From Deferribacteraceae bacterium (GTDB lineage Bacteria > Chrysiogenota > Deferribacteres > Deferribacterales > JAISNW01): a stretch of DNA of 39,578 nucleotides. Under the pieces are notes generated by a model, which had not been told where the DNA came from, did no database searches, and saw only the letters and a program-made list of their open reading frames with translations. Shown piece by piece: positions 23,796-26,571 of this stretch (within the stretch, counting starts at the first letter, position 1; the number at the start of each line of letters is the position of its first letter). The stretch is taken from the NCBI GenBank assembly GCA_031256375.1, contig JAIRQX010000089.1, forward strand, positions 1-39,578, written 5' to 3'. Position numbers and translations under genes: made by a program.

Positions 23796-25235
23796 ATGAC
23801 ACGTGAAATAAAAGTCGGTATTTTTCTTGTCGGCGGTATCGCGCTGGCGCTTGTTTTATCAACAATATTCGGCAATCTGCGGCTTTTCAGTTCCGGCGGG
23901 ATGAAGGTTACTTTTTTTGTAGATGATTCATCCGGCATAACAATAAATTCCAAAGTTAAATATAGAGGAGTCACTGTAGGTGAAGTAGTTGATGTGGAGT
24001 TAGAGAACGGCAAAGTGGCTGTCAGGGTTTATATTAAGGATCAATATAAGATACCGGACAACGTTACGGTTATGATCTCACAGGACGGGCTGATTGGAGA
24101 GAAATATATTGATTTAAACACAAAATCACATTCGCCCGCTGCTGGCAATTTAGCTGACGGCGGTGAATACAGTAATTACAAATCCACTGTGACCATAGAT
24201 GATCTTGCTGAAAAAGTACAGGAAATAGCAAGTCAGGTAAATATTTTAGTTTCAAGTTTAAATAATGTCTTCTCATCTGAACAGGGGAAAGACGATATGT
24301 CAACTACACTCCACAATTTAAGGGTCAGCTCAGACAGTATTAGAAATATTTTAACTTCAAATCAGGATGAAATAAAGTCAGCTATAAGTAATCTTAACAA
24401 AATGAGCTACTCTATGAATAAATTCAGCAGTGACCTTGAAAGGATTATGTCAGCGGAGAATTCCAATATTCAGGCAAGTATTCAGAATCTTAAAGAGATA
24501 ACTCAGGAAAGTAAAACCCTCATAGACAACATCAATAAAATTACTCAGGAAGCGTACGACGGGAAAGGCACTATTGGTATGCTGTTGTCCGATAATGAAA
24601 CCAGAGATCAGATAAAAGACACTGTAAGCAGTCTTAAAAATATGCTGACGCGCGCGGATCAGTTAGTATTAAAATTGGAGGCGGGAATTGAGTATATGCC
24701 TTCCAATGATAACTACCATGGCTCGTTTATGGCTAAACTCCAGCCCAGCGATAAACGCTACTATATGTTTGGCGTGAGCAACAGGCTTTACAACACTTCA
24801 TCTTCATCTACCATATACACTGTTTCTGACTATCTGGATCCGGCGGGTAATAAGTATTATTCGGAAGAAAAAAACAAAACAGAGGAGAATGTTATCGCCT
24901 TTTCACTTCAGTACGCGCTGTTGTTCGGTAAGTATCTTGGGGTCAGGGGAGGGTTATTTGAAAACCAAATCGGGTTTGGTATAGACCTCTATCCGTTTGG
25001 TGCGGAGAATTTGGCGCTGACGTTTGAAACATCAGATTTTTTCAGGAGAGATGGCGGTATTTATTTAAAAGCAAATGCAAAATATTACTTCCTGAACAAC
25101 TTCTTTATTCAGGCGGGATTAGATGATTTCGGTTCAGGGCGCAGCAGTTTTTCATTCGGCGGGGGAATACATTTTATAGACGATGATCTGAAATATATTA
25201 TAGGTTCAATGCCTATTTCATCTGTTGCTAAATAG
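23796..25235 (+). CDS. mlaD: Long MlaD: MCE domain, helical linker and predicted C-terminal beta-barrel
   Basis: The 479 residues are far longer than E. coli MlaD (about 180). An N-terminal membrane anchor (about 7-25) leads to one MCE domain (about 36-115, with SGITINSKVKYRGVTVGEV and QDGLIGEKYIDL). A long helical region rich in Asn/Ser/Ile follows (about 130-295). From about residue 300 the sequence changes to alternating aromatic/polar beta-strands with Gly turns (IAFSLQYALLFGKYLGVRGG, GGIYLKANAKYYFLNNFF, SSFSFGGGIHFI), as in an outer-membrane barrel. This matches the trans-envelope MlaD described in Veillonella parvula, where one protein spans from inner to outer membrane. No MlaC or MlaA gene is present here. 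Confidence 0.88.
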   Translation: MTREIKVGIFLVGGIALALVLSTIFGNLRLFSSGGMKVTFFVDDSSGITINSKVKYRGVTVGEVVDVELENGKVAVRVYIKDQYKIPDNVTVMISQDGLIGEKYIDLNTKSHSPAAGNLADGGEYSNYKSTVTIDDLAEKVQEIASQVNILVSSLNNVFSSEQGKDDMSTTLHNLRVSSDSIRNILTSNQDEIKSAISNLNKMSYSMNKFSSDLERIMSAENSNIQASIQNLKEITQESKTLIDNINKITQEAYDGKGTIGMLLSDNETRDQIKDTVSSLKNMLTRADQLVLKLEAGIEYMPSNDNYHGSFMAKLQPSDKRYYMFGVSNRLYNTSSSSTIYTVSDYLDPAGNKYYSEEKNKTEENVIAFSLQYALLFGKYLGVRGGLFENQIGFGIDLYPFGAENLALTFETSDFFRRDGGIYLKANAKYYFLNNFFIQAGLDDFGSGRSSFSFGGGIHFIDDDLKYIIGSMPISSVAK

Positions 25236-25256
25236 TTTTGCCGGAGGTTATTAACT

Positions 25257-26048
25257 ATAAAAAATTTTTCATTGGGCATATCAAGCTGCCCTAACGACAC
25301 TTTCATATTCGCCGCGCTGCTTTCGGGAAAAACAAACGCAGATATTGATTTTGATCTGACAATGGATGATGTGGAGCGGTTGAATGGGCTTGCCATTGGC
25401 AAAAAACTTGACATTGTAAAAATATCTTATGGTGTGGTAAATGAGATAATTGATGAATATGCTCTTCTCCCCGCGGGCGGGGCGTTAGGGTTCGGCTGCG
25501 GTCCGCTTCTGGTCAAAAAGCCTGATACACCCCTAAAAGGCAAAATTGCTGTTCCCGGGCTGCGTACTACGGCATTTAAACTTTTTTCCATGTTTTATCC
25601 TGAACATATACCAGACTGCACGCCGGTGCGTTTTGACAGAATCATGCCGGAGGTGAAGAGCGGAGAATACGCTGCCGGGCTGATTATTCATGAAGGGCGT
25701 TTCACATATCAGAACTATGGGCTTGATAAAGTTGCGGATATGGGTGAGTTGTGGCAGGAACGGTTCAAAACCCCTTTACCGCTTGGCGCCATAGCTATGA
25801 AACGGTCACTGGCGGCTTATGCACATACAATGAACACGCTCATAACCGCTTCTCTGAATTACGCGTATAAAGATACTCAGGGTATTATGCCGTTTGTGAA
25901 AAAATATTCCGATGAGATGGATGAAGATGTTATGAAGTCGCATATAGAGTTATATGTAAACCGTTACTCTATTGACGCGCGCCCCGCGCTGAAAGGGATA
26001 TCGGAATTTTTAAATTTGCCTGAAGAGAGAATTTTTCATAAGGTTTGA
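25257..26048 (+). CDS. mqnD: 1,4-dihydroxy-6-naphthoate synthase, apparent ATA start
   Basis: MqnD acts late in the futalosine route to menaquinone, turning cyclic de-hypoxanthine futalosine into 1,4-dihydroxy-6-naphthoate. Family motifs are LGISSCPNDTFIFAALLSG, VVNEIIDEYALLPAGGALGFGCGPLLV and the IIHEGRFTY segment with the conserved His. No ATG or GTG lies between the mlaD stop (same frame) and the conserved region. The only standard candidate is TTG25272, 24 bases after the ribosome site and after the first strand. ATA25257 lies nine bases after GGAGG (25243-25247) and would give (M)KNFSLGISSCPND, the family-typical N-terminus. I therefore place the start at ATA, as inference. Confidence 0.9.
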   Translation: MKNFSLGISSCPNDTFIFAALLSGKTNADIDFDLTMDDVERLNGLAIGKKLDIVKISYGVVNEIIDEYALLPAGGALGFGCGPLLVKKPDTPLKGKIAVPGLRTTAFKLFSMFYPEHIPDCTPVRFDRIMPEVKSGEYAAGLIIHEGRFTYQNYGLDKVADMGELWQERFKTPLPLGAIAMKRSLAAYAHTMNTLITASLNYAYKDTQGIMPFVKKYSDEMDEDVMKSHIELYVNRYSIDARPALKGISEFLNLPEERIFHKV

Positions 26049-26049
26049 A

Positions 26050-26571
26050 ATGGACAAAGAGAAACAGCTTTTTACCGCTTCCCTTTTTTTGTCGGGAAAA
26101 CCGCTTGATATTGCTTTTTTAAATAAGCTGTTGGACCCTTTTAACCTTGAAAACCGTTTATTGGAATATTCGGAAGAGTTTAACAAACAGGAAAACGGTT
26201 TGAAAATACGCTTTATTTCGGGTGGATTTCAGATGGCGGCAGATCCGACTCTGACACAGACGCTTGAAAAATATTTCGGAGAAAGATCAGAAACGCTTTC
26301 ACGCGGTTCGCTTGAAACTATATCTATAATAGCGTATAAACAGCCGGTAACAAAAGCGGAAATAGAAAAGCTCAGAGGAGTTGACTGCTCGGGAACTATG
26401 CGCACCCTTTTGGACAAAAATCTTATTACTGTGGCAGGGCGTAAAAGTGTGCCCGGACGCCCTTTACTGTACGTTACTACCCGTTATTTTCTGGAATATT
26501 TCGGTTTGAATGACCTTTCGGAGTTGCCTACATTTATGGAATGGCAGGCTCTGCGTTCGAGGCAGCAGTGA
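26050..26571 (+). CDS. scpB: Segregation and condensation protein B
   Basis: ScpB is the winged-helix kite subunit that binds ScpA and SMC in the bacterial condensin complex. The 173 residues show the family core: SLETISIIAYKQPVTKAEIEKLRGVD, GRKSVPGRPLLYVTT and FLEYFGLNDLSELP. The usual partner gene scpA is not upstream: mqnD ends one base before its start codon. Its stop overlaps the next gene's GTG (GTGA, 26568-26571), the common scpB-rluB coupling. Confidence 0.94.
   Translation: MDKEKQLFTASLFLSGKPLDIAFLNKLLDPFNLENRLLEYSEEFNKQENGLKIRFISGGFQMAADPTLTQTLEKYFGERSETLSRGSLETISIIAYKQPVTKAEIEKLRGVDCSGTMRTLLDKNLITVAGRKSVPGRPLLYVTTRYFLEYFGLNDLSELPTFMEWQALRSRQQ

Follow-up and report, generated by a model that had tools for sequence, protein, structure and literature searches.

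A probable AUA start codon for the menaquinone gene mqnD in a Deferribacteraceae genome

Translation of mqnD, which encodes an enzyme of the futalosine pathway of menaquinone biosynthesis, probably starts at an AUA codon at position 25257 of the window (the whole stretch of DNA analyzed, 39,578 nt of contig JAIRQX010000089.1 of a Deferribacteraceae bacterium), and this codon appears to have derived from an ancestral ATG in this lineage. The original prediction that mqnD begins at this ATA, with the N-terminus expected of MqnD, was supported by an ATG at the same spot in all 39 relatives compared, a GGAGG ahead of the codon, a complete enzyme, and an infC gene in the same genome whose ATA also lies behind GGAGG.

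The mqnD gene and its leader

The following features, all on the forward strand, were assigned in the region.

23796-25235, + strand, gene of an MCE-domain (MlaD-like) protein, upstream of mqnD (TIGR00996, 2.3e-27; TIGR04430, 8.2e-21; both under the curated cut-offs)
25243-25247, + strand, Shine-Dalgarno core GGAGG of mqnD, 9 nt ahead of the ATA
25257-25259, + strand, ATA, most likely the mqnD start codon (homologous ATG in 39/39 relatives; infC ATA after GGAGG)
25257-26048, + strand, mqnD, menaquinone (futalosine pathway) enzyme, 263 amino acids with the initiator, frame intact (PF02621, 5.9e-64)
25272-25274, + strand, TTG, Leu codon in the first beta-strand and first canonical in-frame start, without a Shine-Dalgarno site
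26050-26571, + strand, scpB, downstream, one base from the mqnD stop (TIGR00281, 5.7e-33, over the cut-off)

Read directly, the mqnD frame past the TAG stop of the mce gene (25233-25235) runs TTT TGC CGG AGG TTA TTA ACT and then, from the ATA onward, ATA AAA AAT TTT TCA TTG GGC ATA TCA AGC TGC CCT AAC GAC. The predicted order of GGAGG, nine bases, and ATA25257 was thereby borne out, as was the placement of TTG25272 as the first standard in-frame start, 24 nt past GGAGG. ATA25257 is the sole in-frame ATN or NTG codon between the TAG and TTG25272. It stands in place of a canonical start at the conserved N-terminus of MqnD, and GGAGG at 9 nt provides the strong Shine-Dalgarno site looked for ahead of an AUN start.

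In a simulation of 300,000 Markov sequences matched in length to the mqnD leader stretch and free of in-frame stops and canonical starts, GGAGG lay 4 to 11 nt ahead of an in-frame ATA in 0.13%, and ahead of an in-frame ATA, ATT, ATC, or CTG in 0.43%. The GGAGG-N4-11-ATA string itself is not rare, being found at 14 places on both strands of the window, that of mqnD included; the weight of the mqnD instance comes from its placement at the conserved MqnD N-terminus. No unusual RNA structure was seen near the start codon (z of -0.14 and 0.00).

The product belongs to PF02621, which it matched with 216.4 bits (gathering cut-off, 26; E of 5.9e-64), and phmmer matched it at 9.7e-56 to the Thermus thermophilus menaquinone biosynthetic enzyme of PDB entries 2czl and 3a3u, which we take to be MqnD. 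A second PF02621 protein of the genome, a weaker match on contig C114, would be MqnA. The same genome encodes MqnC, over its family cut-off; MqnB, over its cut-off only with neighboring pieces (128.6 versus 124.7 bits); and an MqnE-like match just short of its cut-off (429.7 versus 434.55 bits). Of the 49 columns without variation among 19 aligned relatives, MqnD keeps 48; the remaining one is the initiator, which the query did not contain. No stop lies inside the mqnD frame, and the structure model of the protein had a pLDDT of 94.4. With the second PF02621 protein, MqnB, MqnC, and the MqnE-like match in place and the conserved columns intact, the menaquinone pathway looks complete in this genome, and mqnD is, to judge from its sequence, without visible decay.

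About 47 bases beyond the second PF02621 match, a 30-base unit is repeated in tandem 7.8 times (L044, 2279-2511; G000:C114).

The start in relatives and alternative readings

Within the order, mqnD was present in 40 of 45 genomes, that of the window included, and the five others gave no match. The homologous start was ATG in all 39 of the other genomes, 4 to 7 codons ahead of the motif [AGS]I[STA].CPND. ATA25257 sits 6 codons ahead of this motif, like the ATG of the nearest relative, G027, whose MqnD is 67-69% identical. Because the other 39 genes have ATG, the ATA would be a derived state of an ancestral ATG, to the extent that a single genome can tell, the genus having no other in the comparison set. 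The original prediction had listed ATG in relatives as a refutation through sequencing error. The relatives do have ATG, but with the nearest only 67-69% identical, the ATG speaks of ancestry and is no proof of error here. The MqnD of G027 has 18 extra residues inserted in frame (QHAPTYILPAGRELVGDV; L002, 1453-1506; G027:C21), which the other 19 aligned sequences lack.

The pattern extended to a wider set, the best 80 of 582 named loci confirmed in a profile search, five of which are contigs of the same order set and none of which is more than 52% identical. ATG lies 3 to 16 codons ahead of the motif in 76 of these 80 loci (at 5 to 7 codons in 62 of the 76), and the other four have only GTG or TTG, 5 to 8 codons ahead, one with a second TTG at 14. 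A search of genome contigs for close relatives, made with the single protein, found none.

The leader of the gene differs from those of the relatives. GGAG, GAGG, or a longer core, with weaker cores such as AAGG left out of the count, was found within 16 nt of the mqnD start in 6 of the 39 orthologues and in none of the other 33. The mqnD ATG of 36 of the 39 relatives follows the end of another ORF by -4 to 17 nt, an arrangement that would suit termination-coupled initiation; these ORFs were not identified individually and are truncated where the fetched stretch was short. The window has instead a 21-nt gap after the mce stop, together with GGAGG. The mce stop and mqnD share one reading frame, and readthrough of the TAG would fuse both proteins; we saw no sign that such readthrough is used.

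That the organism has ATG and that the assembled base is wrong, through a consensus error or a minority allele, is an unlikely reading. It draws on the ATG of all 39 relatives, on the single base that separates ATA from ATG, on the draft state of the assembly (128 contigs), and on the lack of a second genome of the genus in the comparison set. Against it, the frames of the neighboring scpB and pseudouridine synthase genes are open, with scores over a family cut-off, and the accompanying GGAGG is unusual for mqnD and fits a weak start. That a strong Shine-Dalgarno site accompanies the weak codon argues modestly against a base-calling error, which would bring no strong site along.

Translation from TTG25272, which would yield a protein five residues shorter than that from the ATA, is very unlikely. 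This TTG is the only canonical in-frame start ahead of the conserved motif, and four TTG starts with strong Shine-Dalgarno sites were seen in the genome sample described below; it lies, however, 24 nt past GGAGG with no other such site ahead of it. It is also only 1 codon ahead of the motif, whereas a canonical start stands 3 to 16 codons ahead in all of the best 80 of 582 named loci. Its alignment column holds Leu, Ile, or Val in the aligned relatives, in keeping with a hydrophobic strand residue. The original prediction had stated that a start here would remove the first beta-strand of the enzyme. In the structure model, this strand spans residues 2 to 8, counting the Lys as 1, and TTG25272 encodes residue 5, so that a start there would be predicted to drop residues 2 to 4; the strand would be shortened but not removed whole.

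That the start has been lost and mqnD is a beginning pseudogene from which little or no MqnD is made is extremely improbable, for the frame has no stop, no invariant residue is lost, and the other pathway genes are present, even though in half of the family's four genomes (G025 and G026) PF02621 found no match and the MqnC and MqnE models matched only weakly, such that the pathway may be lost nearby. These two genomes belong to a sister genus from which the menaquinone pathway may have been lost, and they are drafts only 78% and 88% complete.

infC and other candidate AUA starts

The infC gene of the same genome reads GGAGG TAAACC ATA TCG CAG, that is, GGAGG, 6 nt, and ATA (L042, about 1483; G000:C97, 2072). 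The order's 45 genomes yielded 42 infC loci, that of this genome included, and the GGAGG-6 nt-ATA arrangement is present in 34 of them. One further locus has GGAGG-8 nt-ATA and an ATG that lies 5 codons upstream; three lack GGAGG but have ATA at the start place, likewise with an ATG 5 codons upstream; and one has GGAGG-6 nt-ATC. The last three loci belong to the window's family and have ATC, followed three codons later by an ATG in G025 and G026 but not in G027, and within the family ATA is thus found at infC only in the window's genome. Outside the order, infC has ATA in the two other genomes of the class, whereas in the phylum's three remaining genomes GGAGG is followed by ATT, in one case with an ATG 5 codons downstream. 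The infC sequences suggest that the class has long used AUA at this gene. Across the lineage the infC start shifts among the non-AUG codons ATA, ATT, and ATC (loci L045-L074, L095-L105, and L202-L206).

In E. coli, the infC start is controlled by IF3 itself, an autoregulation. The original prediction had pointed to the IF3-sensitive regulation of infC through AUA/AUU starts; a regulatory role of this kind for the mqnD start found no support, the ATA being present in one genome only. A conserved non-AUG start is the mark of IF3-regulated starts of the infC type, and the mqnD genes of the relatives have ATG in 39 of 39 cases; this missing conservation would speak against a selected switch older than the genus. 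That mqnD shares the AUA/IF3 control of infC in this genus, with menaquinone synthesis following IF3 level or growth state, is quite unlikely; such control would amount to a little regulon of AUA starts that mqnD joined through a single base change and a strong Shine-Dalgarno site. IF3 regulation of mqnD is conceivable and is not needed for the explanation.

Other starts behind strong Shine-Dalgarno sites, the only kind that the scan detects, were sought in 290,617 bases (the window and 20 further stretches, 15% of the genome) with 221 ORFs picked by codon usage. Strong sites in this sample preceded ATG in 41 cases, GTG in 10, ATT in 9, ATA in 8, CTG and ATC in 7 each, and TTG in 4. The eight ATA hits included only two, those of mqnD and infC, that lie at the start of an ORF without an adjacent canonical start. 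One of the other six adjoins an ATG and five lie at least 46 codons inside ORFs; that in L083, the one inspected more closely, has an ATG 46 codons upstream. Most of the ATT, ATC, and CTG hits likewise lie far into their ORFs or are followed 1 codon later by a canonical start. An exception is an ATC in L087 (3897, minus strand), which lies 15 codons into its frame with the next canonical start 39 codons on.

Spacing was 5 to 7 nt at 29 of the 41 strong-site ATG starts of the sample and 9 nt at 4 of the 41. The 9-nt spacing at mqnD, longer than that of most such starts, weighs against an AUA start.

Recoding of AUA as Met was rejected, since none of the nine internal ATA codons of mqnD falls at a Met column and four fall at columns where all 19 relatives have Ile.

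Proposed initiation and known AUA starts

The AUA start of mqnD that we favor could have arisen from the ancestral ATG by substitution or by loss of an ATG triplet beside an ATA. Such a loss and a G to A change are equally possible, since an ATA codon precedes the mqnD ATG of G027. GGAGG would hold the 30S subunit at the mqnD leader, where the initiator tRNA (anticodon CAU) would read AUA with a third-position mismatch. The protein would start with fMet-Lys-Asn-Phe-Ser, that is, (fM)KNFSLGISSCPND..., and its output would be a fraction of that from AUG. Initiation at AUA, with fMet and a lower yield, is what we infer for this gene, and the weak codon may be tolerated because the enzyme is needed in small amounts and the Shine-Dalgarno site is strong.

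Gene finders limited to ATG, GTG, and TTG would shorten the N-terminus of mqnD. Should the reading hold, mqnD would be a metabolic gene with a natural AUA start in bacteria other than those in which such starts were measured, and the class, in which infC has apparently long used AUA, is for that reason suitable for seeking further AUA starts. Literature searches on mqnD together with the start codon gave nothing on topic, judged by title, and the searches as a whole, which were not aimed at this bacterial group, gave by title nothing on it.

Among 61,358 ancestral AUG starts surveyed in closely related genomes, switches to GUG (363), UUG (113), CUG (2), and AUU (1) were counted, and AUA is unlisted in the part of that source consulted (PMC5622118); this absence weighs against an AUA start at mqnD. 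IF3 excludes weak third-position pairs in vitro, the AUA/CAU pair itself being absent from the consulted part of that study (PMC10158994). The published AUA starts are weak. From the sections consulted of a Staphylococcus aureus study (PMC13009471), non-canonical starts, including the AUA of ccpN and of citZ, reached about 10% of the output from AUG when cells grew in poor medium, and ccpN up to 30% in rich medium. The same sections describe extended Shine-Dalgarno sites at the non-canonical starts of infC, cvfC1, and ccpN, conservation of the citZ AUA in strains of the NCTC 8325 lineage, and a suggested IF3 control of the infC AUA. Output of Listeria monocytogenes rsbW fell in the order ATG > ATA > ATT (PMC13068326, consulted in part). 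An ATG to ATA mutation of rpoS in E. coli O104:H4 lowered the protein at most 5-fold, in the consulted portion of a report that also quotes Hecht et al. 2017 for an ATA efficiency of up to 1% (PMC12864459).

Within its own genome, mqnD resembles infC in having GGAGG and ATA, but the non-AUG start of infC is shared across the order and class, whereas the ATA of mqnD is found in one genome. Going by the part of PMC13009471 consulted, ccpN, citZ, and infC of S. aureus are like mqnD in their AUA, infC and ccpN also in the extended Shine-Dalgarno site, and citZ also in being metabolic. The S. aureus starts were shown by ribosome profiling and reporters, whereas the mqnD AUA is read from sequence, and the non-canonical start of ccpN is conserved, unlike the ATA of mqnD. 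The T. thermophilus enzyme (PDB 2czl, 3a3u) is of the same family as MqnD. The rsbW and rpoS cases, as given in the consulted parts of PMC13068326 and PMC12864459, are single-base ATG to ATA changes in which expression was lowered and not abolished, as proposed for mqnD; they are, however, laboratory or clonal mutations in regulators, and mqnD is a biosynthetic gene without a known phenotype. The AUA of mqnD is in these respects a minor example of an already known type of weak start.
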